From assembly GCA_022747635.1 (NCBI GenBank), contig JAKTNV010000002.1:3262001-3326000 (forward strand): a stretch of 64,000 bases of DNA. The letters run 5' to 3'. This document shows, one piece after another, positions 2,542-53,600 of this stretch. A program made the position numbers and the translations under genes. Below the pieces are notes generated by a model. It worked only from the letters and a program-made list of their open reading frames with translations. It made no database searches and was not told the DNA's origin. The DNA comes from Hetaerina americana. Its lineage: Eukaryota; Arthropoda; Insecta; Odonata; Calopterygidae. Each line of letters starts with the position of its first letter. Position 1 is the stretch's first letter.

Positions 2542-2602
2542 ATTACCGTGTATTTGGGCAAGAGAGACTTTGTGGACCATGTAACCCATGTTGATCCCAT
2601 TG
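2542..2602 (+). CDS. krz: beta-arrestin exon: N-domain strand with polar-core Asp
   Basis: Preceded by TTTTGCAG and followed by GTAAGT. It translates as 20 codons plus one base and includes [12 protein letters not shown]. By alignment to vertebrate beta-arrestin 1 the Lys-Arg-Asp triplet corresponds to K24, R25 (phosphate contacts) and D26 (polar core). The exon begins at the position equivalent to residue 18, so one short coding exon with the start codon is missing from the window. It ends in phase 1 and joins in frame to 3483. Confidence 0.95.
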
Positions 2603-8600: not shown

Positions 8601-11600
8601 TGTCTGCTAATTAAATTTAGATGTAGAGTGAATTTAATGCTATAATAAAGTGTCCTGTTTTGGGTTTCCTACCATTATTGCAGGAAAGGCTAGTGAAGAA
8701 ATTGGGTCCCAATGCCTATCCATTTTATTTTGAACTACCCCCCCACTGCCCTGCATCCGTGACCCTGCAGCCTGCCCCTGGGGATACTGGAAAACCCTGT
8801 GGCGTCGACTATGAGCTAAAAGCATTTGTTGGTGAAACAAGGGATGACAAACCTCATAAAAGGTTGTAACATGTTCCATTTATTAAGGAAATTTTTGTCA
8901 ATGTAATTAACGTATTTTCCCATCGACAACACGCACGTTATCTATGCAAAAATGTTTAGATGAACGGAAAAATGATGATTCGCATTTTGTAATGAAAATT
9001 GAAAAAATCCAAACATTTACATTCCTATGTACACCGTAATTTAAAGAAGTCTCTCGCAAAATAAATCAGGCAGGAAGCATGCATTCCTAATTGCATTCTA
9101 TTTTATACAGATCTGGTACTTTTACAGTTATTTCATCTCATTAATCCATGAGAAAAAGAAGATGCATATAATTTCTATGCTTCATTTAATCTAATACATA
9201 GTACTTCTATATTCTAATAATAGTACTTCATGTATGAGGAGAGTACATCATATTATACACATGTACATATAAATATATGCTAGGCTAGGTAGATGACTTG
9301 AATCCCAGAAATTCATCACCTTAATCACAATTAAACAAATTAAGTGCATTTTTATCTCTTCAGGCACAACACAGAGTTGCTCTCTGAAGTTAACTCTTCC
9401 TCATCTTTTAGCACTGGTGTCAAAATATTGCCTAAAGCTTTTTCAAATCCATTTTTTACACATGTTGCTCTGACACCTTGCCAACTTTCCACAATCCACC
9501 GGCTTATTTCTTCATATGACACTCTTTTAATCCTTCCGGATTCTCTTTAGTCTTTCGTACCAGAAATCATCCACTTTTCCCAACCAGGGCGTAACTTTGA
9601 TTTAAATGATATTAATGGATTTAATGAATGGCAGCCTCACGATTTCCTTTTTCTTTTGCAAAATTGATAACTTCTAGCTTAAACATCACTGTGTACGATT
9701 TTCTTCTCCATGGGTAATTTTCTTGGGAAAATTCTAAATTACAAAAGCTTAACTCACTTCAGGTTTGAAACACTGACCATGTAGGTGACACTTTCATTGA
9801 ATTTGGAGGGTGTATAGAGCAGCTGATTGCCGATACTTACTGAGCAAAGTAAAGCAAACAAAACCAGAAAATTCTAGTTCATTCACAGTTCTCTTATTTT
9901 TTTGATATTTGGTTTGCTGAAAGTTAATTTATATAGCAAATGAAAGGGCACACAAACCAATGTCTGGTTTCAATTTGCAAATCATAGCGAAAAAGCAATA
10001 AGGCGGCTTGTAAGTATTGTTTATTTTTGGATCCTTCTGTTGTTGGGAATTAATTTCAATCACCTGGCTCTGGTCTTCTGCCTACTTATGGTAGATATAG
10101 CTGCAGGCAATTATGATTTCATGTATTCATTGGTTGTTGCGCGGCATCTATACACGTTCAAGATAATTATGAAGCCCTGGGCGCGCAGTATCTATACAAT
10201 TTCATGGTAACCACATAGTTCTGGGTGCACGTTATACATAAGGTGCGCGTTGTCGATGGGAAAATACAGTATTTGTTAATTTTTGCAGCTCAGGAGAGAT
10301 CACCATTGATAACGTGCTATAAATATTGTAGAACGTAGTATTCTATAGCTTTGTTATAGTTTGATTTGTGTAGCCCCTGCTGTGATTTGCTTACCCACAG
10401 CTTAGCGTATTTGCTGCAATATTCATTGCACTGCTGTAAAATGTTCGCTCCGTACGAGTAAATGAATTCTTGACTAAAGCCAAGTTAAGAGTTGCAAAAT
10501 TTTTTCCATCTTTCTGCCAATTATTGCCCTTTGTGAATCCTGAAATGTGTTACTTTTTTAGTTGACTATGGGTTATGTAGCCATTTTAGAATGTGATTGA
10601 TTTAGCCAGGAGGCCAAATATTCTATGTAATAAATAGAGATCAAAATCATTCAGGATTTCTTCCCTGTGGGTCCATTTTCTAGGACAAAAGTTTCACGAG
10701 TGTTGTAGTTGGCATCATCAGGTCAGAAGGGTTCTCTTAACTTTCATTCTAGGGAGTGGGCCCTCGTGGAAGAAATCCCACATGATTTTGATCTCTAACT
10801 GTTACACTCTGCGGAAGCATACCCTGTAGATTTAATGCAATACTACAAGCCTATTTTAGAAGAGTTACGATAGAATTTCATGCTTGTGTTGCTGTGGCAG
10901 TGCTTCATTTTAGTAAAGAAATTTATAAAAATGATATCAAGTAGAAACTAAGTGTATATATGGTGCATTGTTTGCTTACTATGCATTGCATACATGGTAC
11001 CAGTTTTATTGATTGTACTCCAGTGATGCAGCAGCCGTTACACGTTGAAACATGTTCTGTTCTCTTGTGGTTGCTTGTGATGATGAAAAATGGCTTCCAC
11101 AAAGATATTTCTTCTCATTGGTACGCCAGAAGAAGAACATTTGGGCTATGTCTGGAGTAAAGTGAGGATGAAGAGCACACTTCACACAGATTTTGTGGTA
11201 AAATTGAGAATTTTCAGTGGGCCCTGGAGAACCTACTGCATACAAACTCATCTCATGTGCAGTTGCAGTCTGTTACCAATGGGTTGTGGGTGGCATCCAA
11301 GCAATTTTTCACTATTTCTTATTGCACTCTTAGTATTATTGCATAATCTTCTCTCGCATTAGAAGCATTGGTGCCTGTTTAAGAGCCGGGAGCTCAGCAG
11401 GGTCCACCTGCCATTGAAATGGATTGCCTCCCCTCTTTAAGCAATAGAAAGCATCTTCCAGTTGTTCTAATGGGAAGAACAACTGGAAGATGGTTTGAAA
11501 TATTTAAAGAGGGGAGACAATCAATTTGCTGTGGGTGGGATGCCTCCACTCACCGGTCACTCATTTCACCCTTGGAACACACATCTCTCTTATATTACTT

Positions 11601-14600
11601 CTGTTTAGGCCACAGTTTCCCGTTTAATGTTAGGTGGGCATGGCCGGTTTTTGGCAGTAACAACGTATCGCCAGGTCACTGTATGTGACTTGTTCTTTAA
11701 TGAGTATGTCAATGTACATTTCAATTAATTTTTGCAGATCTGAATATAAAAATGGCCCCACGGCCTTTCGTCAATGACCGCAATGGAAAAGTACTGTCCC
11801 AATGTGCTATAAAATTAACATTAGTCAAATTAAAATCTTTAAGAAACATCATAGTCTCTTTGAGGCTAGTCAGGTCTATGAAGGCTTTGGCAGTGTTGAT
11901 AGAGGAGAGATGTGGCAGTTTTGGAAAAGATGGAGACGAATTCCTTGCTGGAATGACACGCCCTCTCTCTCCGAGTGGGCGCTGTGTCCATATACACTCT
12001 TCAGTATGCCTGGGGAGGGACACTTGGCAAGGTTTTTATGATCACTCGCAGGCATTATCACAATGAGCGCTCTATTTTCCATAAACAGGGCATAGCAGCT
12101 AGAAAGTAAAGGTTATAAATGCAATCCTAAGGCTCTTTTTCTGTGCTTCTGATGCAATCTGCCACATATCTCTAGATGGTGTGCAACAACTTGAAAATTT
12201 ACGCAATGTATGTGCATATATATTTGCTGTTAATTTTTTTAACTGCTCTTTAAACACTTTGCCAAGCTAACTAGATTTTTAATAATCTCATCTAAAGGCA
12301 CATTATCACCATTTAAGATAATGCTTGGTTTTTATAAAAAGTATTGGGAAAGGTTTAGGAAAAATAGATTTATTTCAGATGCAATACCTACAATGCCTCA
12401 GAATTCTTCAAAGTACATCCCTTGAGCATTGACAAACTTTTGCCAGTGGCCTTTGCATGACACGGGCCATGATATGAGCCTTCCAAGGGTCCCTGGTGGG
12501 TGGACTCTGGAAGGTCCTTTAGGGTACGCATAAAAGCTTCTTTGGTGGCACTGGTCCCATGGTGGTCTCCTTCGAGGAAGGGTTTCACTTTTGGGAATAG
12601 GAAATAGTCTGCTGGTGCCAAGTCAGGACTATGAGGGGTTGCGGAATGGTCACGATACCATTGCAGGTCTTACCAAGCAGATAATTGACTCTGTTCTGAG
12701 TTGTCCATCAAGACGTTCAGGACAATTTTAGCGCTGATCTTTCGCTTAGCCAAATTTTCAATGATAATGGTGTGCCCTGTCATCTTATCAATGCCAGCAC
12801 GATCTGTGATAATGCCCATACTTAACCGACGATCTGAATTCAGCACTAAAGCACTTGTCAGGAAAAAATCTTTACTGATACTTTTTATACAAACCTTGTA
12901 GTGATATGTATTGTGGTACCACCTCTAATATTAATGGGTGAACCCGGTTTAAATGGTCAATAGTCAGAGATAATGCCTATGGGAGTAGCTTCTTAAACCT
13001 AAATCTGAAGTCCTATTATGGATTTTTGTTGCGTGGGTATATCTTTCATTTGTACAAGAAAGCTTGGATTCAATTTGAATGTGGAACTTCTTGTCTTTAT
13101 TTTTCAAGTTTAATGGTGTTTGTATTTTCTCTTTGAATGCAGAGGATCTTATGGCCGCTGAACTAGAAATGTTTAGTTACATCCCTATTTTTTACTTGCA
13201 GAAATTCTGTGAGGTTGGCAATTCGGAAAATCATGTACGCTCCCAGTGTGCAAGGGGATCAGCCATCTGTGGAGGTTAGCAAAGAATTCATGATGAGCCC
13301 CAACAAATTGCATCTTGAGGCTTCCCTGGACAAGGAGGTAAGAGCTATTCTGCGGCATAAGTTTAATAGAAAGTGTAATTTTTAATATATTCTTTATTTT
13401 AATTTACAAGAAGTGACCAATTGCAACACTGATAATCAGTTGCCGGCAAGAAGTCTGATGCATGTTGTATATTTGTTTCTGTGTACATTAGTTTCACAAC
13501 AGCTTGATAATTATGTGAACTACATGTTGGGGGACTGACCTCAAATGGGAAACGCAAATAATCAAAGAGATTTAACTAAAGAAAGAGGTAAATAAGGCAG
13601 CGATATAAAATGGTGTGGGACACGAGGAGGAGGGTGTACCTGGTCCTTTGGACGAGTCTCATCCTTATGTCTTGACTTAGTTTGCCCTCGCATATCCGTG
13701 CTATAAGGGTCACCTTGACTGGCAAGCATCTGAGATGAGAGTGTGCTCACTTCTCTTCTTACTTCCGTGAAGCTGTCACTCCCAAGGAGTGCCACTCGCT
13801 TTTCCCAGGCAATTATTGCTGAAAACAAATGTGCAGCAAATGCCACATCACAGATGAGGGAAATTCTAATAGAAATATAAAGTGGCCAATCCCAGGCATA
13901 ATACGAGGGCGGTTCAATAAGTACCCGTGTTAGAAATGAAGAAACCATTTTTTCAATAACATTTTTTTTAATATTCAACATAGTCCCCTCTTAGAAAAAT
14001 ACACTTCTCCCAATGTTCCGGCCATTTTTTTAACCCCTCCAAAAAATAGGATTTGTCGAACTCTCCAAAATACGCCTCTGTCTCGGCGATAACTTGCTCT
14101 TTTGAGCTAAATTTTTTCCCGTGAGCCAATTCTTCATGTTAGGGAATAAGAAAAAGTCGCAGGGAGCCAGATCGGGTGAATACGGGGGGTGCGGCAGCAA
14201 TTCATAACGTAGTTCATGCAGTTTGGCAGCGACAACTCCGGATCAGCTTGGTGTCCACCGTGAGCAATCGCGGCACCCATCGGGCCGACAATTTTTTCAT
14301 CGCCAACTTATCATGTAAAATATTAATTGCCATTCTGGTCGACACACCTCCCACGGCCTCTGCTACTTCGCACACTTTCATTCGTCGATCAGCGAGAATC
14401 ATGGCGTGGACTTTTTGAATGATATCCTCGGTAACCACGTCTGCCGGGCGTCCTGGTCGCTCCTCATTAAACACCGATGTTCGCCCACGTTTAAATTCGT
14501 TGAACCAATATCTAACTAAGGTCATAGATGGCGAAGTGTCCCCATAAACGGCATCCAACTTTGCTTTTATCTCCTTGCATTTCTTCCCATCCAAAAACAA

Positions 14601-17600: not shown

Positions 17601-20600
17601 CCATTTTTCTTCCACTGAACAAGTTTTCTTGTAAAGGCTGAACATGTAGCATTGAAAGATGCTGAACTCGGTGTTTAACAGTGTTAATATTTAATATATG
17701 GTTAAGATAATCAAATCTTTGATATCATAGTATGCATGTAACTCAGCATATGAAAACTAGCAATTTAATGGTATTCTAAGCAGGTGTAACTTGTATATTC
17801 TATTGTTTGAGGCTTCACTTCGTGGAAGTATTTAACATCCATATTAAAAAGAAAGACTTGTACTTTTCCACCGATTTTATTATGGCAGATTACATGAGAT
17901 TATATCAGGTCCTTCCACCCCTCCATGCCCCCCCACTCTGTCCTGAGGGCATATATTTTGGCACTCTCTCTTTAGCAAATGTGTACCTGATGATGCCGCA
18001 AGTCGGTGAAACTCATTGTACCATGTAATAAAATCTGTGGAAAAGTACCAGTCTCTCTTTTTAGTATGGATAGGTGTAACTTGGTTAGTTTTCTCTCAAT
18101 GAAGGGTAAAATGTACTGAAGGAGTCGCTGTAATGGAAACATCAGGATATATCTTTGCAAAGTAATGCTTAAGAGGAAGAGATCTTGCTAATGTTGTGGC
18201 ATTTGGGTTATTGTTCATAACACATTGATGACCATATTTACTTGGACCCCATGTCGAAGCCACATGAATCAATCAACAATTCAGGAAGTTGATGCAAAGA
18301 CGGCCAAGTTGTTTTCCTTGCAGCATTTAATTTTTGATACCCATATGATATTTTATTTTACATGCTGTAATTTTAGTGGTATTTAATTTAAATTTAATGT
18401 GTTTCACTAATTTGTATTCAGGAAAATTAATAATTGTAAAACTTCTATTGCAGCTCTATCATCATGGTGAAAATATTGCTGTAAATGTCCACATTGCTAA
18501 CAATTCAAATCGCACAGTAAGAAAGATAAAGGTTTCTGGTAAGTTATTTGTTTTCTCAATTTAAAATTTTACATTAATATTTGTACTTCAATTATTAACT
18601 GGATGGATATTTGTATTAATTTGGGAAAATTTTAATATCTTGAATGCATCACTCTTTTTTAATTATGTATTAATCTATTTGTTGATAATCAAATCTTTTT
18701 TCATAAAAATGTGAAGTAGATTAACTTCCAGTAATCCAGCACTGTTTTTAATCCAATTTAGTCTGTTAAGTGCCTAAAGTTTATTGAGGTAGTATTCTCG
18801 CCACACACGTTGAATGGAGTGGGTAATTTGTGGAGAAGAAATGTGAGGTCTGTCCGGAAACCGTCCGGGAGAAAAATAAATCTACCTGGAACAAAGAGGC
18901 TTTAGTCCCATTCAAAGTACTACCCCCCTTGGGACCTCACACACTCATCTCAAAGTCTCCTTCATTTTTCAAAACAATAGGGAAATCCTTTTTTGGTCTG
19001 GTCATTTGAACTGGTAGATACTTACCTTTGGCAAATTCAAAGAAACGTGTGTGGAGCCTCAAAAGTTACTCCATTGGAGTCATCTGCTGATAAGTGCCAA
19101 AATGCAGAAATTTCACAGTGTAAAAATCATTTCCTTTTACCAGGACCCAGGTTTGAATTCCAGTCAAGGTGAATTATATTTACCTTGAAAGTCCTGAATT
19201 TCAGTGCACATCAACTGATTGACTCCAGCAAAGTAATTTTCGAGGCATTTCCCTCAGTTCTTTGATTTTTTCTCCCGCTGAATCGCTCCTTAAATGGCAA
19301 TGCCTCTTCAATGGGTCTCAGCTTAAAGAATAAATGAAGTTTTAAAAAATCAATGTTAGTCTTTTGCATGTGCTGTATTCATATGGCAAATCATAAACTT
19401 GCATTCAGATATTATGACAATCTTTGGATACTATTTTACGAGCCCTTGAAATGCCTTTCTTCCAACAATTCACTCCAATTCTTGTTGTGCCCTCCCTTTG
19501 CATTCCAACTTTTAATATTCTGCTGAAAGAAAGGCTCGTTGTCGTGTTGACCATAATTTATTGTTTTATTAATGCATGTTGGCTTTTGCATTTGTCATTT
19601 TTCCTTGTTGGATGGTGAATTTTGAAATTTAGTTGAAAATTTGTATTTATGGAGGGCAGCACCCTGAATTTCTTTATAGTTTTGCCTTAATTTATCAGAT
19701 GTGTTGTTTCCTCTTCCTCTATGTACATATAGTGACTGAACTTAAATTGCTATGAAATTGAATTTTCATGTTTTGAAGCTGGCATTTTTTTATTCATATA
19801 CCAAAATTAAGTCGTGTCTGTTCAAAAGCTGATTAGTTGAATTAAAATATCAAGTAAAATAGCACTATTTCTATTGATTTCTTATTGTGTGAGGGTATTC
19901 AGAAGATAATTTTCAATTGTTTTCCCTTGTTTAATTTTTTCACATGTTGTTAATTTCAGTTCGGCAGTTTGCGGATATTTGCCTTTTTTCCACTGCACAA
20001 TACAAATGCACTGTTGCTGAAATAGAAAGCGAGTGAGTATGATTGAAATGAGGAGCAAATTTTTTGCATTTTTCTAAGGATGATCGTTTAAATTAATGGA
20101 ATTCTGTCAATGAAACTTCACTATTTACTGAAGATCCATGAGGAATCATCATCATGGAATTATTTTTTTATACTGTAAAATCCTTTGTTGATAAACATTC
20201 TTTTGAATGAGTAATGCTTCTTTTAAATGTGTAACTCTCTTAAGCACAGAATGCAATGAAATAGTTATCTCTGAACACGTTCAGGGACGGGGTAAAAGCT
20301 ATAAATATCATTGGTTGCAATGAAACCTCTCTTAATGGGTCACCTTGAGAATGGTCACTTAGTCCCTCCCTCTATAAGAACAAAAGCTGCAGTTGCTTCT
20401 CATCAAAAGGCAGCACTTTTTTTACCTGATTTTTTTCTCCTAAAATGTAATGTTTAGCATAATCTTTTTAGAATCAAATTGGCGTGACAAATTTATCCCA
20501 TGGCAACTGTTAGGAGAAACGGGTATAATTTTGGGATTGTAAGATATTAATTAAAAGCAAAGTGCCCAGCTGATTACTTCACTCTGGCCTACATGTATTA

Positions 20601-23600
20601 AAATGGTTAAAAAACTTCATTTTGGTGTATGATGGTGAAGACAATCCATGATAATCATTATGAAGGTTGGCGTAGATGGGTAAGAATAGAGCTCACTCCA
20701 AATGAAGCCATAAGCCATTTGAATTACACACGTTCAGAGGGTGAGTTCTTTTCTTTGAAAACTAAGAGCAAAGCCAGATTCCAGGGAAGGAAAGGACTTT
20801 CTGGTTCTACAAAGTTCTGGTCGCCAGAAAATCATACTGTTTGGATTTCAGATTTGGGGCTTAGGTTTAGGGCTGTGCGGTTGTGCGTGACCTAGGTACC
20901 AAACCAGTGACCTTCCAGTCAGTCCAAAATTCTTGAACCTCCAGGCTACCACGTCATGTGGTGGTGACATGGAAGAAGGATATGCTTGAACGTCTTACAG
21001 AAATTCAAGTTTTTCTGTGAAGAGTGAGAATCACCACCTTCCATTCTTGGGACATCTCATGTCAAGTGCCCACGTGTGGAACACAATCACTGCTCCATGA
21101 TATGCGTCAAGTTCTGGAGTTATGCATGCTTTTTCTGGAGTTTGCCAGCTTACCTCAAGACTATTCACATGCTAATACTGCAACCGATGTACAGCTCCAT
21201 ATCCCATGATGAACAGCATTGTTGTTTCATAATGACGGTGAAAAAATGCTAAATTATTTGTTGTATTCTATTACGGTTTCAATTAGTGGAAGTAGCTCCT
21301 CTGCAAACACTTCTTTTAAAGGCTACGTCTGGCAAAAAATTCTAATATTAACCTTGTGAGGATTTAATTGTGAAGAATTGATCAACTCCAATTTCTTTCC
21401 ATATTTCATGAAGCTTTTTCTTGAATTATTACTTTTGATATTGGAATGAGTGTGAAGGTGAAGTATAGACTGTGATCAGGTAATCTTTCCATTAGATATG
21501 AGTCAGTTGAACATTTTTTCAGTATCTGTACTGGTTCTGTGAATCAGTTCTTGGTTCTGATTCATAGTTCCATTAGTTCCTGTGAATGGATCGGTAGGAA
21601 GCTGTCAACATTTACAATAATTAGCAAAAATGTGATGACTTCCCAAGGAATGGTCTCTTTATAAAAAGTTATATGTGCAGTTTATGAGAAGTTTCATTCC
21701 AATTCAAAATTTTAAATACAATCTTTGTGCTTTTTAAAGTTTCAAAACTGAAAGACGGATGTACTAAATGTATAGATAGATGTACGTGTACTGGATGATA
21801 AATTTTTCATTACATCTCCAATAAAGAGTTAATAGGACAGGTTATATTGGTGCAATGGTGGTTATTCTCCAACATAAGTAGAGCATGGTGGCCATGTGAG
21901 GGGAATTAAGTAGATGAGTATTCATTGATTATTTTGAGATACATAACGTATGCCTCATGAGACATGTATGAAAGGGAGGAGATTCTCTGAGCCAAAAACT
22001 TTCTACTAAATCTTTGATACTGCAGTGGATATTATTGCCTTGTACATAGTTTTAGTGCGTGATAACCACCCAGCTTAGTATCAATGTCAGTTTCGAAGCC
22101 TAAGTTTTTCATGAAGGTTATGTTTTCAGTTTTAATCTCGAGGACCTGTGGCACCAAGAACCTAAGGATGGAATCAGGCTGTTGCTACTTCCTTTTGATA
22201 AAGGGTGAAGGAAACAACAGTGTGCTCTGCACAGAGTACACAATCATTCAGAAGGCTGTAGTAGTTCACTGTTTTGAGAGAAGCATAGTGTTTGCTAAGA
22301 CCCATAGTACTCTATATGAATATCTACAAAAAATGAGTTGTTTCGAGCTTTTCCAATTGTTGCCCTCCGTTGAGTTAAGTTCCTTTCAGAAATTGCAATG
22401 CTATTCTCCCTAGTATTACCTAAGTGTTTTCTGAGAGTGATGTCCTTAAAGAGAGTTTTCGTTGTATAGCCATATTTACCTTAATGTTTTCATTGCATGG
22501 TTTACTCATATGGTACAATTAAGATGTTTTCAGAATAGAAATACTGGACATTTTGCTAAATTTTAAGTTTTTCTTGACAAAAGTAAAACCAAGATTTTTC
22601 CAATTTCTCAAGATACATTTCACAAGGTTGAGCCTGATACCATTGAATTAAATGTCATTATTATTATCACTCGTACAGAGAATTTATCTGTGGGTCCTAC
22701 TAGCCAGAGCGGTTTTTATTGAAAAAATAAATAACAGAACACTAATAACTCAAATAAAAATAAATGGCAATATCAGACCATAAATAATGATTTATAATAT
22801 GATTTGAAATGTCAGTTGAATTTTCAGGAAATGGGATTTAGTGGTGCAACTGGTTTTTTGAGGGAAATGTTTGATGTTTATGTCATTTTGAAATGCTGAC
22901 GTTCATGAAAATGTGATTTTTTTACCACGGGTGTTTCTGTTTAGTGTTCAACCATGATATTCATTTGACATTAATCATTTCATTTCCATTAATTTTTGTT
23001 TAATTGGTTGTGCATTTGCACGATTTGTAAATTTGAATTAACATTTTTATTGATAACTAAAATAACTTCCTAGTTCATTATTTGTCGAGAAAGAATTATC
23101 AATAACTTAAAGTAATAGAATATCAACCTGCAAATGAAAAAATATTTTGTATAAATTTGCATTGCCATTCAATGAAAATAGCACTAACGTTAAAATTATC
23201 CTTATTCTACTTGCTTATTACCTAATTTACCCTTGGAGAAATTGAAATCATTTGTCCTGTGAGTCCGTTAATAAATAGGGTGTGAAATCATGAATTGGGG
23301 GGGGGGGTTGGAGTGGAAAGGACCACCAGGCAGTGCCCCACGGCCATCTCTTTGCAGAGACGGTTGCCCTGTTGGCCCAGGTTTCACTCTGTCCAAGGTT
23401 CATCGACTTGTTCCGCGACTGTTGGACAACCGCGATAAGAGGGGACTGGCATTGGATGGTCGGCTTAAAGACGAGGACACCAACCTCGCCTCCTCCACCG
23501 TGTGAGTGCAGGGGGGTTTCCCACCTGTGGGTGGACCCCCCTGGTAATGTGCACGGGAGATGGTTTGGGTTGACTGAGGCCCATCCTCCCCCCTCCCCCC

Positions 23601-26600
23601 TCCTCCTCCCTCCCTCCCCCCCCCGTCTCCCACCACCTCTTTGCAGAGAGGGGTGCCCCATAGGACCTGGGTTCACGCTTTCTAAGGTATACACTCTGAT
23701 GCCCTTGCTGGCCGACAATAAGGATAAGTGGGGCCTTGCCCTCGACGGCCAGTTAAAGCATGAGGACACCAACCTGGCATCGAGCACTCCGTGAGTAGTC
23801 ATTTACTTTGGAGGAGGTGCGAGTGGTTTTGATGGGCTCTAATCACCACTCCCACTTCCCTCCACTTGCAGAAGTGCTGCAGGAATAATGCTCTTGCACA
23901 GTTAGAGTCTGTCAATTATAAGTTTTTGCCTCCTGCTGATGTAATGCTTTGCTTTTATGAATACATTCTTTCTTTTGATTGTTGATTTGTCAAGCTAATG
24001 CATTATGTTTTATGCATCTCTGCATCCGGCTTATTTACAATATAATGAGTAGAAGTGGTTTAATGCTTGCACGTTACTGAATTATAGTTCCAGTTAGCAT
24101 GTAGAGTAATTAAAGTCTTAAATTTACCCTAATTATGATTCATGTGTTTAATTTATTCAATGACAGTTCATTGAAATATTTTTAAGCTTGAGGTTTTAAG
24201 TCTTTCAAAAATGAATATATCTATCTAAAAGGTATTTCAGGTATTCAACGCACATTTTGATGATTTAGATTTAAATTAGGTTATGTTTTCAATAAAATTT
24301 CTTTTTTATTGAGAATTCTATGTAATAGGTCCGCCACATTGAGGATGTTGTATTTTCTACTGTTGTAGACATATTAATATGTATGGAATGAATGTGAAGC
24401 TATAGCATTTTGAAGATATCAATTCCCAATGTCATACCAATATCTGCAGATTAAACAAAGATGGTGTTAACGATTGGCTGTGAATATATAGGATGTCAAT
24501 CTTATACCCAATATTGAATATTTAAGAAATACCTTATTCTGATACTTTAGCTAAGGAGGTGACCATCAACTGGGGTGGAAAATTTGACAATGGGGAAGAC
24601 AGTGGTAGCAGAGCACTGCCCGTGATGTGCAAGTGGGCCTTTTTCTTAAAAATAAGAAAATTTCAATCTCGACATCACCAAGAGTACACAGAGCCACATT
24701 AGACATACACTGAGACAAAATCATGAACAACGAACCAGGAATCATCGACGCACTGTTATTTAACCTGGTTAGTGAGTTTAAAAGTGCACAGGCTACACAG
24801 AATAACAGAAAACACATCTTCTCCACCTCCCCTCCCCACTCCCCCACCTCCTCTCTCACTTCTAACGCACTCACTTGACCGTGGGCACTACTTTGCCACT
24901 GTTGTCTTCCTTGTCGACTTTCCACTCTAGTTGTTGGTCACATGCAATAATGCACTTCCTATTCAGGTGCAGTCCTTATTCACAGAAACCTATATTGTAT
25001 AACTGAACTCCATCTCTCTAAGCAATGGGGTTGTATGCAATAGTCATGAGTTGCGCAAGATGAACAAAAGGCTAACGATTTTTGATATATGTTTTCATTG
25101 CACTTGTTTCTTGCTCTGTCACTTGTGACTAGAAAAAAGGCTTCTTCGTTGTTGCCATGAATTATTTTTTTATTAAAGAATTTTTATGGAAATTATATTT
25201 GCAAGACCAGATTTGTAAAATAGATACTTTTGTGATGAATAGTGAGCAGTGTTCAATTGTGTGGTTTGAAGGGATTAATATGGATGAGCAAATATCAATA
25301 AACTTAGAACATTTTAGACCACCTCTGGAGCATGCCTGATTCCATTACTTTGCAATGTTTTGTAACTTTACTGTAGTGCCACTTAAAATCAACTTAGAAG
25401 TCACTACCTTTCTCTCATACGAATCAGTAGATATTTAAGATAAGACAATAAGGAGCCCTGTTATAGGTTTGGCTATAATTTCTCATTGCCTCATAGCCAT
25501 AATCATTGCCTGCTTTGCATCAGTTTTTAGTTGTAATGGTATTCATTTTTTTACCTGAAATTCATTCCATTGGCTGTCAGGAATCTAAATCATTTTCCAA
25601 GTATCATTAAACATTTCTTAATCACATACAATGTTTCATGCATTCAAATTCACAGAGCCATTATGTTTTCTTTCACAACTTGTAAACAAACCATTGCCCT
25701 CCGAAGTGTTCTTTTTAGTTTAGCCAATAGCAAAAATTAAATGATATTGAATATAATGCCAATAGGAGCAGTGCATTAACCTTAAGCGTGGTGATGAAAG
25801 GTATGTGTAGTAATCGCCCGCAGCAGAGGGCGCAAGCTACAGAATCTGTTTGTGTCAATTGGCTACCGCTTTGTGAAGTCCTCATTGGACCCCTACCAAC
25901 AGCATCTTTTCTAGTGTATTAAGAGAGAGCGCAAGTGTCTGAGATATTTTGATGGGATTCAGCTATTTTAATGGGATTCCTCGCACGTGAAGTCGCATTG
26001 TGAAGGTTTGAAGGAGCACTTTAAGGACTTATGTCCTCGACTTGATGCTTGCCGTGCCCTTGTGCGTCTGACGAAGGAAGATGCTCCCTTACCAGAAGAG
26101 CCAAAGAGTGAATATGTGTTGCGCATTCCAGAAAGCATTATCAGCACACACTTGAAGGGCCCCTGCTTTGTAGTAATGCCGTTTGCATTGTTAGAATCCT
26201 CCACCGTGAAGCTATGTCAAACGCAAAACTTATCCTTTGAAAATCCTCAATGCCTCAACTATATACTTAAATCCTGGGTGGAATTACAGCTTAAGAAAAT
26301 GTACTGTTTGCACATGTTCTTGGTTGTTTCCCAAACCAAGATGCTACCGCATCAGTTCTCTTATTCATGCCAACAGTAAGAAAGTGCTTTTACATGTCGA
26401 TTGGTTGTCCAACTGGAAAAATGCTCATATTGAACACATGCTATTTGTTTTTTGGCTGAAAATAATGAAGTAAGGCTGTGAATGATAAACAACCGAAATG
26501 ATGAACTTTGATAGGTCATGGTGGAGCTCACTTAGTACGAGGCATGTGAAATTCATGCAGTAACAGGATATTAAGGGTGGCAAATTCCTGTCACAATGCC

Positions 26601-29600
26601 ACATTTTCCTTCACAGAAAGATATGGGATCCAAAAAGTTATAAAGCTTGGAAACTAGGAAAAGATGACCCGCAAATTCACTAGGTCTGTAAAATTTTGGC
26701 AAAAAAACGGGGCATTTCTTTGTTAGACTCAGGAGCCATGAAGTGATGGTGTCATTAGTTTGGTGAGTCCCAGTTTTGTCACGAGTCATCTCTGTGTACC
26801 TAATTCTAGTTCATCATATGTAATGATTTTTGTGGGTGTTTTTCTTGTTTGCCATAGGAATTAGTCCCGTTGAATGACGTTTTGCTTTTGTAGTTTTGCT
26901 TACCATTCCTTCTGACATATTCTAGATTGTTTAGCCCTTTTAGTGTCAGTGGGCTGATCTCTTGGGGTATCTATTGGGGTATAATCAAAATATGCCACGA
27001 GCTGGTCTGCCTGTATATATTTGTTTACCCTCCAAAACTCTTGTCAATGTGTTCATAAATTTAAATGGACTGAAAATAAGAGGATTAAATTGTATCACGT
27101 ATCCTTTAAACTTGGAAAGCATAAATAGAGAAATTTGACATCCGAATATTATTAATAGATTTTATATAACTTTCTCTCTGAAAATGTACTTTTAAAAAAT
27201 GTGGCATTAGCTGCACATAGCAGGTGTGAATGCTGGCGTTAAAAGGGTTTATATGTAATTTTGATTCAGTATTCATAACATGTACGATGTAAAAAAAGTT
27301 ATTTTCGAAAAGGTTAATTTATTTAAGAAAAAGTCCCAAAGAAACTGCGGGAGATGCCGCAACAGTAACTTTTAACGGAGTCATGCGCATTTCAACAATG
27401 CAACAATTTCAGAGTGTAAAAATCATTCGCCTTGACTGGGATTCGAACCCAGATCCCTCAATATCCAGTCAAGTGCTTTAGCCACTTGAGCTACCGAGGT
27501 GTCCTCTTAATCTCTGAAATTTTTGGGGACCTCGTGGACTGTGGCGCCTTGGCACGAATACGAATGCCGGTGACATTGCATGTTTGGTATTCACATCACA
27601 ACATCTAGTTCCTTTAAAAGCCCCAAAAATTTCATAGTTTAAGAGGACGCCTCGATAGCTTAAGTGGCTAAAGCCGTCAACCGGATATTGATGGATCTGG
27701 GTTCGAGTCCCAGTCAAGGCGAATGATTTTTACACTCCGAAATTGTTGCATTTAAGAAAAAGTAATTTTTCAAAAGAAGATGAGACTGTTGGAAAAATTA
27801 CGTGGCCCTGGAAAACATGTACTTTCACATAAAAAAGCAAAAATACTGCTTAAGGCCCATTAGATATTGAATATATATATATATATATACTACACTATAG
27901 GGATCCACTGGTATGTCTCTTTCTTATATTGCCCTGAATGGATGTCAGAATCGGGAATACTAGGTCTGTTCCAAAAAATACGAGACTCTTTGAATAAATA
28001 CTTGATTTTATTAGTTACCCTTTGATCGTGCTTATCTCCTTCAAAATACAGACCTCGGCTGCCAATACAAAGCTTCCAATGTTTTTTCCAGCTTTTGAAT
28101 TCCAACTGGAACATTTCTTTTGGCATAGCATTTTAAGTCTGCGGTGCAATATTGTTGGATGTCTTCAATAGTTCCAAATCGCCATCCTTCCGAGGTGGAG
28201 TTCAACTTAGAGAATATTTAAAAGTCCACTGGATCAAGATCTGGAGAGTAGGGTGGCCGGGGAATCACCGGTGTGCCGTTTTTGGCCAAAAACTCTGTCA
28301 CAATCAATGATGTGTGCGCCAGTACGTTGTCGTGATGAGAGCACCAAATCTTGTTTTTCCACATTGGTGCTCTCTTTCACAAAGCATGTTTTCACCTTCT
28401 CATAACCTCTATACATATACCCTCCCATGGACTACAACCTTGACGTGGTGGAAGGGCTTGTGCGTTCCGATGACCCCTAGAGCTGTGCTGGCGGGAGTAA
28501 TAATAATTGCTCCTGGTAGGGTCACCCATGCCAGATAGGTCGAAGGTTAGGAGCCAGACGAAAGGTAGTCCATGCAGCGTCTGTTCCTCAGTGAGGCGGC
28601 ACCGAAGGCATCAGACACCAGTGTGGTGGCCATTGAGTGATGGTGTCACTTTAAAAACACTATTGAGGAAGGCAACAGGAAGCTGCCTCAATTATCCCAA
28701 GACTTTAATGATGGATGGTGTAGAGAATATCAGTCCTGGCAACTATGGGACTCGGCCCAATCAGCTGTGTGTCGTGCCCAGCAGCAGGAGAGGCAAGGCT
28801 TCCTCAATTGTAATCTCACGAAAACCTTGCAAAGCAAAACCAGGAAGGAATCTGGAATACAGGAAGAATCTGGCTGGAAGACTTTTCCGAAAAAAGGAAA
28901 TAAAGCAGTCTACATCTACATAATACACCGCAAGCCACCTCAAGGGCCTGTGGCGGAGGGTGTTAAGGTCATCACCTGTACTGTTTTTGCACTGTATATT
29001 ATTATAATTATACCATTAGTGCACACATAAAGTAACTGCAAGCAAAAGGCTCATTTATAACAAAAAGGTATCTTTATAATCGGGTATAATGATTAATAAG
29101 AATATTTATCTGACTTTAATATTTTATAATAGTATCATTGCTATATCATGTGTCACACTTTCAGTTTTGTAATGACTTCATTTAATAACTTGAATTGTCA
29201 ACAGAAAATTTTAAAGTCAACTCACTAAGCAATGTGTGAGGTATGAAAAGGGATAAGCCTGAGGGGAGAATGTTGGGCAAATGAGGAGTGGGCAGGAATA
29301 GAATAAGGATGTTTGGTGGGATGAAGGGAGGAAGGAAGTACTCGGAGATGAAGGGGAACTTGTTGTTGTACGATGTCTGGTGGTGTTTGTTTTGGAATAA
29401 CAAAATATTTATTTGGTAGTTGTGTCCATCCAAAACCTACCTAAACCGGTGGATTACCTAATAATAAAAACCCTTTATATGGTGCTGCCCGTTCAATCTC
29501 AGTCCTCTTTCATTGGCACTCTCCCTGACAGTTAACCCACGGTTTGCTTGCACTAAATCATGCACAGTGTTCAAGTGGACGTTTTCTGGATTTCAATGGT

Positions 29601-47600: not shown

Positions 47601-50600
47601 TTTGATTCGTTATGAAAATTTTCATGGACAGTTGTAGTTTTCTACAAACCTGCTTCACTTTTCAAGATAATCACTCCTATTTTTCTTAACGCTGCACCAG
47701 CTTCTTCAATCACTCAGCAAAGCAGTTCATCACCAAGGAATTGAACCAGTTGACAATTGCGGTCTTGAGTTCCTCATTGTCTTTTAAATGTTGTCGACCC
47801 AGCCACTGTCTCAAAGGCTAAATAGTTACCAGGTGCGAGGTTGGAATTTAGGAGTGGGTGATCAATCTTGTCGATGGAGGTCCGAAAGTGCTTGTCCACT
47901 CAACATTCTTTGCTCTTTGGTGCGTCCAACCTGAGGAAATTCATCAGCTGGAGCACTGATCGTCAATTCATGACCAGGTTGAAGTTCCTGGTCAACTTGA
48001 ATGATGCCATCCGGTCTGACTACTGGGCCTTCCACTCTTCATCGTGCACATTTGTTTGACCATTTTTGAAGTCTCAACATCATTGCCTAACCTTTCCTTC
48101 ACGCATTACTGTGGGTCCATCAATTAGGCACGACTCCAATAAACTTGATGAGTCATTAATGCCAATGATTCTTTTGCACACAAAAATCAAAAGGCTGCCT
48201 GCACTTTGCGACTGGCAGCGGCAATGATTATCTTGGACGTTGCTGTCTGCATTCAGCATCGGGCAAATGGCTACTGAATGAAAACTACTTCAATGGATTT
48301 GGAAACAATCAATAGATGGCACTGCATACGTAAAGCTTTGCTCTGACCCACTAATATTTGAATATGAGGAAGTGCCCCTTACTTTTCGAATATGTCTCAT
48401 TCATATTTTTCAACTGGCTTCTTTTCCATCCTGCAGCAAAGATGTAGCATCCAATAGCTTTTGTTTACTTTATTCACACAAAGGAAGAAGATAATAGTCT
48501 TCCACAATTTTGAAGGTCTTCTCGCAAGATATGAACAGGAAGGTGTTTTTGTATTGCACCCGAATTGCCCTGCCATCTTCACTTTTATCGTACTAATACC
48601 TCTGTAGCTGCCATTCGTCCATGCTTGCCATAGTTCCACCATCATGCCATGCTCAGGCATCCCGTTCACAAGTCTCGAAAGACCATTTGACACCATAAAA
48701 CATGATTTCTTTCATCCATCAAAACAAATTTTCAGAAATAGCCATTTTCAAAACATTTTTGTCCTACTATTCTTCACTATATGGCTTCATAAATATTGTT
48801 CTTGCTCAGTAAAATATGGCAACTATTTTAAAAATGCACCTACTGACTTCTGACCTACCTTTTTCTTTCACCTCCATGCAAATATCTAGTCTATGGTATG
48901 AATTGTGGGGATCAGGATGGTGTGGTGGCTATTGTCCTGTCTTTCCACTCAGAAGGCATTCGTTCGAATCCCGGAGATGGCTGATATTTTTCAGTGGTAT
49001 TCCGATCCCTACTTGAGGTGCTTTGGTGAGAGCAGTTTGAGTTTGACCCCTTGGTGCCTTTTGTTAAGAGCAGACTCTTATGCCGATGCTGAGTTTCTCT
49101 CCACCCTTCTTCCTTTCCCATCCAGCCAGCCCTAAGGGTTCAAATGACCTTAGCTCTTAGTCACCTCCCCTGAATCAACTACTTTTACTAGTCTGATTTT
49201 TAAATGGTTGGAGCTAGCCTTGACAAACTTAAGAGCACCAGCTCCTTCTCAAGATGACCCTTCTTCCACAGCACTCAATTCATGGCCTTAAAAGTAAAAG
49301 TTCTCAGAATAAAAATGAAGTTGAAATTCATGTTTTACCAGGTATGCTTAATTGATATTATCAATTTTCTCCATTATTGTTTCCCTTAGGGAAAATGTAT
49401 GTTGGCCTTTCATCTATTTGAATTACCTTTAACTACCGTTTATAAATGCAAAGAAGAAAGTATAAACTGATTCCTGTTTGCTATCCTTAACTGTCGTAAG
49501 CATTTAGAAGCATAATAGTTGGGATAGCGAACTCATGTTTAGTCAAAATTATACTCTTATTTATTTGGGCACTTAACCTTGCTTCGTAATGTAATAACAT
49601 TTCTAGTTTAGATATTTTATCCATTCATATTGATTTTGATACAATAATTTTGACCCTTTAGTGATAACAATCATATTGCAAAAATAAAGGTAGATTAAAA
49701 ACAGTTCTTTGGAGTTAGGAAATATTTGTTTCAGATTCATTGCTTGGCTTTAATTGTATGCATTCAATGCTAAAAATAGTTTTTCCTTAAATTTGTGTTA
49801 GTTTCTCTGGGTCAGTGATGATTTGTTAGCTGCTTCTTTTTGTTTGCTTTGCATGATTATTTTTTATAAATCGAAAACATTTTGTGTTGGTATAGTTTGC
49901 ATTGTACAAATTGCACAAAAAAGGGCAACCTAGTTTTTTATATAACTTTTACAGTAATTTGTTTTGCTAAAACCTCTGCTTTTATTCATTAGAGTTTATA
50001 ATGTGCCGTTAAATGCATTAAGATTCGAATCACTAAACTATCTCGTTTCTGTTTTCTGTAGTATTGCTGATCCTTCCCAACGAGAGAACTTAGGAATCAT
50101 AGTTCAGTACAGAGTTAAGGTGAAGCTTTGTCTTGGACCTCTTGGTGGGTAAGTCTTTTAAGTAAAAATATAAAATGTATTATCCTGCTAGAGACATGTC
50201 ATTTGTCAATATATAATATGTTTTGGTCATTGCATAATATATTTTGAGTGATTCACAGCATGCCAAGATTGTGAGCAGGGGAAAACAGTGAACATTTTAC
50301 CCAAATAAATTAACAAACAATTTTTCATGTGCCTTGTTTTGACTGATGTCATAAGGATTTTGAGATGTCATTACCACATCTTGAGGCTAAAGAAACTATG
50401 TAAATCCAAATTCTTTGTCTCTCTCTCTCTCTCCATTTCATTTTCTTCAATTCGTATAATATTTTTTGTTGAAATTAATGGTGAAGTTTTGAAAGGAAAT
50501 GTGGTGTTGAGAATATGCTCAGGCGGTCTCTCACTCAAGGAAATCCCATGATGTCACCGTTCATATCTTCGTTATCAACCAAACTTTGTGTGTGTTGAGT

Positions 50601-53600
50601 AAACTAGTCAACAATGAAATAACCCATTGGAAATAATAAAACAATGGGATTCTACAGTATTATCAGAATCATATTCCTGTATGTGCACATTAATGAAATT
50701 AAAACAACTATTATTTTAGGTAATACAGGCCTGTATACTGGTTAAGGTAGGTTTTGGATGGACCCAAAAACCAAATAATTATTTTGGCTCTCCTTACAAA
50801 ACACAACCCAACATCCTACTCGACAACAAGTTGTTCTTTCATCTCTGCGTACTTCTCTCCTTTATCCCATCCAACATCCCTATCCCATTCCTGCCCTTTC
50901 CTCATTTCCCTAACATTCTCCCCTCTATTGCGGTCTTCAACATCCCACTTGCGATCAATATGCCCTTTATCAATTTTTCCTGCCTCCTTAGGATTTCTCC
51001 CGACAATCCCCTCTTCTCGCCCATCAAACCAAGTACTTACTCGTTTGTTTTCCTCTCTTTGCACTTAAAACCTTCTCCCCACTCACATTTGAAAAGCCTC
51101 AAATCCTCCCCTATCATCGTACTTCAACGACCATGTCTCCTCGCCAAACATGAGGTATACTAAGGCTAAAGACTTTGATAATTACTGACTGGTATTCAAG
51201 CACAGAGAATGGGGCATGTATGGCGGAGGTGCAAGCACTGTAATCACAGCTAATTTCATGGCAAATATAGAAAACATAGATCCAACATCATGCAAAAATC
51301 CCAGATCTTTTCCAGGCTTTCCATGAGTCCTGTGGTGTGTCTGACTGGGGAATGATGAATGTGATCACCAAATGTCTTAAAGACGACATATCACTACTGG
51401 CTTTTGTCACGCTCAGCTTTCTGAAATGGCTGTGAAGTGGTATCGTCTCCACTGCTGTCCGTAATAGCTTTAGCTTCAAGGCACTGTCTCATTTTATTAT
51501 GAACCCATCATCGTCAGCACATGGGTTAGGCTTCTTTCCCTTCTGCTTATTTTTAACTCTATCAGCCAAATTGAGGAAAAGATATAAGTTTGGCTCACTT
51601 TCATATTGCTCAATTATATAGTTTTAAAGTCTTCCCATCGACTAAACCGTGAGTGGCAGAAGGCTTTGTGCATTCCGATGACCCCCTAGAGCTGTGCTGG
51701 TAAGGGTGACCCTACCAGGAGCAATTGTCATTGCTCCTGGTAGGGTCACCCATGCCAGATAGGTTGAAGGTTAGGAGCCAGACAAGGAGTGGTGCAGTGG
51801 CTTGTGGGGTAATATGCAGCTGATTTCGCATGGAATGGTCATACCTTTGCAACATTTTTGATGACTCGTCACACGAATGCTCCTGGGATGAGAATATATT
51901 GTACATTGTCCAGGATATTGTCGTTCTGCGTAATACAATCTCCCCCCAAAGTTGAAGGCATTTGTTTACATAAATTCAGAGATAACTTAAAACTGTTATT
52001 TTATTCTATTTCCCTCGATATTTTGCATTCAATCATCTTGAGGACAACTGTTTGAGAAAAAGAAATGTATTGCAATGTTTTTCTTTATTACTAATCCAGG
52101 TGGTGTTTCTAAATGCATTATGTTTGTTTATCGTGATCATTTCTGCTTTCTTTATTGCAGTGATTTGGTGGCTGAGCTGCCATTCACCCTAATGCATCCT
52201 GAGCCTGAGGAAGAATCCAATTCCTTACCTGCACTGAACGCAGTCACCAGTGAAGGAGAGGCCCCCTCTGATGGGAGACCCACTCCTGGACCCGAAACGA
52301 CCCCTTCTAATGACACCAATCTTATTCAGTTGGACACGTAAGTTCTGTTGGAAAAATTGGGCAGTTATAGTGTTATTCTTGCTAACAATCCTGAAAATTT
52401 TAGCGTTTGACATTGCAGTTACATAAGTTAAAGTATATTATTTATAGATGTTACTGAAACGAGGCCACTTCTGGGCAGGAATCCCAATTCCCAATGAAGG
52501 AGCCCATTCTCAAAAAGTGTCATTCACTCCCACGTGCCTCCCTTCCATTGATTTCCCTCCACCTCAGGCTCATTGCAATTACTGATGATGCAGGAAATTG
52601 TTCTATCAATACATGGGAATCCCAGACTCTTCATTTAGGTTTTAATGAGAGTCAAGCATCAGAAAACCGATAAATTATTATTTATATCCCAGAGATTCAC
52701 TGTTTCAATGCCTAAAACTTTAACTGGCCATAGGACTTCCATATTACCAATTTTGATGCATTTTAGGAATGGTCATTGCAAAATTTAAAAATAATTTCAG
52801 TTTATACTTTATCAATATTTACAGTCAATCTTCACTTGATGGGTACTTGTGTGGAAGCACGCTTGAAGTGGATTACATGTATCTAAGTGATGGTCCCAGC
52901 ACTGCCTTGTTGAGTTCTATTTGTCATAAGTGAATTTCAGTCAGTGTGAACATTTAACAAATTTGTCGGCCCTTTGGTTTTGGGTGATTGCTTAAACTCA
53001 AATATTCGAATGCCTTCGGGGACTTAAGATTACCTCGGCTCCACCGTGACAAAAGCAATTTCTGAAATTTTGGGGAAGAGCTACACGGGGGGTGTTTAAC
53101 TCACAATCAGCTGCGTATGATGTCACCTGATAAATGAAAAAGAAACACGTTGTTCCAATCCACCACTTTTAAAGTGGTGGATTGGAACAAAGTGTTTCTT
53201 TTTCATTTATTAAAATGAACTTCCACAAAGTTGAGGCTGAAACTATTGAACTAATGATGTCACCTCTTTTTCCACACTTCATCCTCGGTCTTTGAACTTT
53301 TCCTTTACAGCTTCACTCATGCTTTCCCCCTCCTCCATGCACACCCCTTGGTAAACATCCCACTGGGAGAATAGTCCAACTCATATTTGAGTGTATGCGA
53401 ACCCAATGGGTGTACTCTTAAAATTTTCTCCTCTCATCAACCTCTTAAGCAACCAATTGTGTGACGTGAATCATTGGAGTTGGAAAATTGAGTTCTGTGT
53501 TCACCCATTGGTGCGCACTTGATTCAAGTCAATTCATGACTGGACTCTGTGACCTCTCTTATCCCATTGATGCATGAATCTCACCTGATGTGTGGCGTAG

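Follow-up and report, generated by a model that had tools for sequence, protein, structure and literature searches.

A pair of tandem alternative exons for the gate loop of a damselfly beta-arrestin

The stretch analysed here, called the window below, comprises 64,000 nucleotides of the damselfly Hetaerina americana (assembly GCA_022747635.1, contig JAKTNV010000002.1, positions 3,262,001 to 3,326,000) and carries on its plus strand a kurtz-type beta-arrestin gene, with ten coding segments from 2542 to the stop codon at 56068, one of which is present in a second version. The two versions, exons a and b, encode the exchanged part, a 48-residue lariat or gate-loop segment of beta-arrestin. Judging from the sequences, splicing of one or the other probably swaps Arg for Trp at residue 285, so that a single gene would give rise to two non-visual arrestins differing in their receptor and phosphate preferences. 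Residues are numbered as in beta-arrestin-1 by means of alignments to PDB entries, exon residue n corresponding to beta-arrestin-1 residue 257+n.

The exon pair in the window

When the exon chain is joined with exon a, it encodes 430 residues that are contained without a single mismatch in the database protein P0040 (source name: beta-arrestin-1 isoform X2 [Hetaerina americana]); this protein is longer than the window model by 26 N-terminal residues. The pair and its surroundings are as follows (plus strand throughout).

19960..20032 (+): coding exon 7, the common upstream exon, donor GTGAGT; splice sites, frame, P0040 match
23358..23501 (+): alternative exon a (copy 1), with R285, R292 and D295; present in annotated isoform X2 (P0040)
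23502..23646 (+): a-b intron, 145 nt, with one YTNAY branch-point candidate at 23573 and a C-rich tract upstream of b
23647..23790 (+): alternative exon b (copy 2), with W285, Q292 and H295; splice sites, frame, homologues
50062..50148 (+): common downstream exon, 26 kb from the pair; splice sites, frame, P0040 match

Both alternative exons are 144 nt long, have identical phases, and are preceded by a ttgcag acceptor and followed by a GTGAGT donor. The reading frame between 20032 and 50062 remains intact and free of stop codons in all four combinations (a, b, both, or neither). The polar-core aspartates 290 and 297 are present in both exons.

The two exons share 91 of 144 nucleotides, and the differences are distributed over the three codon positions as 12/6/33. 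Comparison of the 47 full codons revealed 11 identical, 25 synonymously different, and 11 non-synonymously different ones; by the method of Nei and Gojobori (NG86), the proportion of synonymous differences (pS) was 0.89, so that the synonymous distance (dS) is saturated, and the non-synonymous distance (dN) was 0.21. Stretches of 36 bases lying entirely outside exon a and compared at the a-to-b offset had just 4–12 matching bases, and the flanking introns are unrelated. The combination of saturated dS, a dN of 0.21, and unrelated flanks argues against a recent assembly duplication; the pair is old and under selection, and does not have the look of an assembly duplicate. A tblastn search of the window with either exon revealed no third copy, the best other match having an E value of 0.045.

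Copies in other arthropods and the residue at position 285

Exon a, exon b, and an Anopheles pair served as queries in three protein searches, and the best 120 of 348, 860, and 2757 significant hits, respectively, were merged without repeats into a set of 259 homologues; absence from these lists proves nothing. Both copies occur in tandem in 41 of the retrieved proteins, representing 40 species, and are spaced exactly 48 residues apart in 38 of them. The insects concerned belong to Odonata, Ephemeroptera, Blattodea, Hemiptera, lice, Hymenoptera, Coleoptera, and Diptera, and the crustaceans are two decapods, one isopod, and three ostracods. We infer that the exons lie in tandem in the genomes of these species as well, with adjacency and equal length and phase of the homologous exons being read from DNA in the damselfly and from proteins elsewhere. 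On the evidence of these proteins, the exon pair is not peculiar to H. americana.

Position 285 is the sole column of 47 that differs between the two copies in all 41 pairs: the first copy always has Arg, and the second has Trp (36 proteins), Cys (4), or Phe (1). A weaker marker is position 275, occupied by Arg or Lys in 32 of the 41 first copies and by Thr in 37 of the 41 second copies. The second copy with Phe285 belongs to the ostracod Cyprideis, and those with Cys285 to the lice Polyplax and Menopon and the bee Eufriesea (P0125, P0012, P0013, P0017, P0032).

The remaining 218 retrieved proteins carry a single copy, with Arg at 285 in 82 and Trp in 136. Among the matches listed, the Arg type includes every chelicerate, myriapod, collembolan, and Daphnia single-copy protein, besides those of some insects and crabs, and every species-named protein of the Trp type is from an insect. 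Since vertebrate sequences also have Arg, this distribution makes it likely that Arg285 is ancestral and that Trp285 is a novelty of copy 2.

An earlier note on this DNA, made from the sequence alone, had described two adjacent 144-nt exons of the same phase with consensus splice sites, and the coordinates, the ttgcag and GTGAGT signals, and the frame bear this out. It was right that 25 codons for the same residue differ synonymously, the total of such codons being 36 and not 37, and the residues that it assigned to the two exons at 285, 292, and 295 are those found. Two checks that it had proposed, a dN/dS comparison of the exons and a search of related insects for the same pair, gave the values reported above and the 41 tandem proteins, among them one of the dragonfly Ladona fulva. 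Saturated dS with a dN of 0.21, the identity of exon a to its Ladona counterpart (98%), and the pairs across insects and crustaceans uphold its view that selection has long retained both exons, and their anatomy, together with the paired copies in insect and crustacean proteins, supports its reading of them as tandem alternative exons for the arrestin lariat or gate segment. Its emphasis on 292 and 295 as the key differences was misplaced: the first copies have Gln at 292 in 40 of 41 cases and His at 295 in 40 of 41, with Ladona being the exception both times. It had placed the differences at the phosphate-sensing loop; the invariant discriminator is residue 285, which in the available parts of the published structural work is mainly a receptor-loop contact and not a phosphate contact.

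Being shared only with Ladona among the 41 tandem proteins, R292 and D295 of exon a look like odonate features; in copy 2, Asp295 was found in 7 of the 41. The identity of exon a to Ladona copy 1 is higher than that of exon b to Ladona copy 2 (98% versus 89%), so that in Odonata the constraint on exon a is no weaker than that on exon b. Another peculiarity concerns the junction of 23789–23790 with 50062, which places a Pro after ASST when exon b is used, at a site where Leu predominates in the Trp-type proteins of other insects. This Pro is common to Ladona, Ischnura, and the database protein P0128, and therefore looks like an odonate feature rather than a sequencing error.

The copies within one protein are similar: in ungapped comparison the median number of matching residues is 37 of 47 (range 23–42), and every one of the 41 tandem proteins has Asp290 and Asp297 in each copy. 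One could therefore suppose that the exons are alternative but their products equivalent, the choice tuning only expression or splicing kinetics. This explanation is unlikely in our estimation: the opposition of Arg to Trp, Cys, or Phe at a contact residue in all 41 pairs is unlike neutral exchangeability, and the difference at 275 also speaks against it.

Exon usage and the predicted effect of the proposed switch

Annotated isoforms were compared in species chosen because several isoforms had been retrieved for each. Zootermopsis has Arg-only and Trp-only isoforms and one with both copies; Anopheles funestus, A. arabiensis, A. merus, and A. maculipalpis have Arg-only and Trp-only isoforms; a dual form is accompanied by an Arg-only form in Rhodnius and Lycorma, and by a Trp-only form in Phlebotomus, Ptiloglossa, Nicrophorus, Athalia, and Formica. 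Within Odonata, isoform X2 of Hetaerina contains exon a only, isoform X1 of Ischnura exon b only, and the Ladona protein both. Two single-copy proteins are encoded on short contigs. P0128 (exon b only, 462 residues, 89.8% identical to the Ischnura protein) comes from a contig of 1,804 nt, too short for introns like those of the window gene, and is therefore likely a transcript; P0115 is a termite-like protein with exon a only from a contig of 1,677 nt, with 96.4% identity to Zootermopsis X4 over 412 residues. The source tags lgn and jgi, which we take to denote assemblies of raw reads or metagenomes, were found on 50 of the 218 single-copy proteins and on no dual protein among the 41. The pattern fits mostly either/or use of the two exons.

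Alternatively, the functional product could be the form that includes both exons and thus a duplicated 48-residue segment of the C domain, with the single forms as by-products. The 41 dual proteins among the 259 retrieved, 38 of them with the exact 48-residue spacing, agree with this, as does the frame kept by a+b, and the match of Pfam Arrestin_C (72.2 bits) to the dual protein of Zootermopsis forms a single stretch. We nevertheless regard it as improbable, given that the lgn and jgi tags occur among single-copy proteins alone and that annotation gives single forms alongside the dual one in eight species, chosen because both kinds had been retrieved. The AlphaFold model of the dual form was poor, with a mean predicted local distance difference test score (pLDDT) of 52.3, and is uninformative rather than negative.

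Mutual exclusion of exons is classically enforced by a frameshift, by an intron too short for steric reasons, or by incompatibility of U2 and U12 splice sites, none of which is required for an exon pair to belong to this class. Frame, intron-length, and splice-class enforcers are absent from the damselfly pair: a+b is in frame, the intron between the exons is 145 nt long, and both donors are GTGAGT. The only YTNAY candidate in this intron sits 72 nt from the donor. The pyrimidine fraction of the 40 nucleotides preceding the acceptor, calculated for 11 exons, was lowest for exon a (0.50, tied with exon 6) and highest for exon b (0.90). Because the acceptor of a is pyrimidine-poor and the tract of b is C-rich, exon b may be the default and exon a the regulated choice. 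As for RNA structure, the minimum-energy fold contains a GC-rich hairpin at 23511–23541, about 10 bases past the exon a donor, and a G-run at about 23298 can pair, around exon a, with the C-rich tract upstream of b; this fold does not outperform those of shuffled sequences.

According to the available parts of published arrestin studies, R285 of beta-arrestin-1 contacts intracellular loop 2 (ICL2) in complexes with the beta1-adrenergic and M2 receptors and intracellular loop 1 (ICL1) in neurotensin-receptor complexes, and is listed among residues said to touch the different G-protein-coupled receptors (GPCRs) always, the contact with the V2 receptor being merely suggested at lower resolution (PMC10866553). 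Its cation–pi partner in the glucagon receptor is W425, and the R285A replacement almost abolishes binding (PMC10447241). In arrestin-1, the changes Arg291Ala and Arg291Glu at the same residue increased binding to phosphorylated rhodopsin by 20–30% and to the unphosphorylated form more than twofold; Arg291Gln, with a Gln that is natural in some arrestin-4 proteins, also lowered phospho-selectivity, and both substitutions of His301 (equivalent to 295) raised binding to the unphosphorylated form (PMC12733242). Since the arrestin-1 mutants gain binding and beta-arrestin-1 R285A loses that to the glucagon receptor, the sign of the effect may differ from receptor to receptor.

The R285 form would keep an Arg able to stack on receptor aromatics, as on W425 of the glucagon receptor, and would favour phosphorylated receptors. 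The W285 form would lose the cation–pi contact, may pack as an aromatic residue instead, and would be less phosphate-selective, like arrestin-1 with Arg291 replaced by Ala, Glu, or Gln. In Odonata, D295 of exon a may further loosen the gate; it may also pull the opposite way on phosphate selectivity, and the net effect in this order is uncertain.

The main target of the switch could, instead of receptor docking, be a non-receptor partner such as ERK, as R285 adopts ligand-dependent states in nuclear magnetic resonance (NMR) and has been hypothesised as a site of ERK interaction in the part of the study available (PMC7519161). We hold this to be quite improbable in view of the contacts of 285 with ICL1 or ICL2 in several complexes (PMC10866553) and the near-abolished glucagon-receptor binding of R285A (PMC10447241). 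That one of the two exons is a decaying relic or results from faulty assembly, as could be imagined from groups with one type only among the matches listed (Lepidoptera Trp, Daphnia Arg), hardly deserves credence given the saturated dS with dN of 0.21, the unrelated flanking introns, the 98% identity of exon a in Ladona, and the annotated a-only isoform in H. americana.

Several observations weigh against the proposed choice between an Arg285 and a Trp285 arrestin. No H. americana isoform with exon b is annotated among the matches listed. Annotation also shows exceptions to either/or use, with both copies present in 41 database proteins; among these, the dual Lygus hesperus protein P0031, listed from UniRef alone, may be transcript-derived. 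The RNA fold of 23270–23660 lends no support to a structural switch and was rejected as evidence for one, its z score being -0.54 and 26 of 100 shuffled sequences being as stable. Trp is not among the changes at 285 named in the available parts of the cited arrestin studies. AlphaFold models gave a mean pLDDT of 59.1 for isoform a (P0040, alignment of 60 rows) and the above-mentioned 52.3 for the dual Zootermopsis form (46 rows), both falling below 50 over the gate loop, and nothing is drawn from them. Finally, a tree was built from 46 columns, with position 285 (column 28) left out; its 78 segments came from the window pair, from 33 of the 41 dual proteins, and from 10 single-copy Arg proteins. 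The second copies did not form one clade in it, and copy 1 and copy 2 each required 6 changes.

A single clade of copy 2 was not rejected in the same analysis (p = 0.272), and the bootstrap was not settled. Starred branches unite like copies across species in lice, Diptera, and malacostracans, and two of the three ostracods do so on each side, which argues against species-specific duplications. Because of the Arg/Trp split and the order of the copies, and not because of the tree, we infer one duplication no later than the last ancestor shared by insects, malacostracans, and ostracods. It is conceivable, if rather doubtful, that with this pair, more than 400 million years old by divergence dates, splicing met the need of pancrustaceans to serve many receptors with one arrestin, toggling the general receptor-contact residue between a phosphate-dependent Arg form and a phosphate-independent Trp form with aromatic docking and giving each cell its own choice of GPCRs.

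If splicing does exchange Arg and Trp at 285, insects and crustaceans may also have two non-visual arrestins, and the natural R285 and W285 variants offer material for testing the role of this residue in receptor choice and phosphate sensing. Drosophila kurtz, we assume, has the Trp form only; if so, work on the fly would not have revealed the pair.

The gene, its surroundings, and known systems

The other coding segments of the arrestin gene are listed below.

2542..2602 (+): coding exon 2; splice sites, frame, identical to P0040
3483..3742 (+): coding exon 3; splice sites, frame, P0040 match
8684..8862 (+): coding exon 4; splice sites, frame, P0040 match
13202..13337 (+): coding exon 5; splice sites, frame, P0040 match
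18454..18538 (+): coding exon 6; splice sites, frame, P0040 match
52161..52337 (+): coding exon with LIQLD; splice sites, frame, P0040 match
55978..56068 (+): last coding exon with the DDDIIFEDFARLRLKG tail and the stop codon; splice sites, frame, P0040 match

Exon 1, which would encode the 26 N-terminal residues of P0040, was not located within the 64-kb window, the top match (E = 0.10) not being accepted. The Pfam domains Arrestin_N (93.2 bits, cut-off 24.9) and Arrestin_C (74.1 bits, cut-off 27.7) were identified in P0040. LIQLD and DDDIIFEDFARLRLKG line up with the human sequence, and we take them to be a clathrin-box-like motif and an AP2-type tail, respectively. The exon 4 donor at 8862 is GTTGTA, less consensus-like than the other donors, yet the annotated protein makes use of it.

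The 26-kb intron after exon b contains at 39077–41754 an array of a 335-bp repeat, with 5.5 copies at 100% match followed by 2.5 inverted copies at 99%, which holds eight tRNA-Ser(GGA)-like sequences; two more such sequences are located at 27427–27722 in inverted orientation. A mariner-type transposase extends over two overlapping frames at 31879–33026, the first of which has the Pfam Transposase_1 and Mos1-type helix-turn-helix domains. On the minus strand, a 387-residue frame at 45437–46600 encodes a GIY-YIG domain, together with a reverse-transcriptase piece that narrowly misses the Pfam cut-off, and is presumably Penelope-like.

Mutually exclusive exons as a kind are known already, and annotated isoforms with either arrestin exon are present in public databases; no arrestin exon pair was described in the literature searched (titles and abstract openings of the best-ranked papers). 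Tandem duplicated, mutually exclusive exons are exemplified by arthropod Dscam1; there, as in the arrestin pair, neighbouring homologous exons agree in length and phase and provide alternative versions of a single protein segment. In contrast to exons of the Dscam1 type, there are only two copies, exclusion may be less than strict, and the one constant difference in the 41 arrestin pairs is a single contact residue.

The known splice variants of vertebrate beta-arrestins are small insertions, and here too splicing would alter arrestin activity. The vertebrate variant p44 of arrestin-1, mentioned in the available part of a recent review (PMC11173308), is truncated at the C terminus, whereas in the damselfly gene an internal gate-loop segment would be exchanged. 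The Gln in place of Arg291 that distinguishes arrestin-4 from arrestin-1 is likewise a naturally occurring difference between subtypes at this residue, but it lies between genes and leads to Gln, while the damselfly change lies between exons of one gene and leads to Trp. Invertebrates are said in that review to express only one non-visual arrestin, and the reason why vertebrates kept two is called unclear (PMC11173308). A parallel in function would be vertebrate arrestin-2 and arrestin-3, likewise two non-visual forms serving many GPCRs; vertebrates use two genes for them, and here one gene would suffice.

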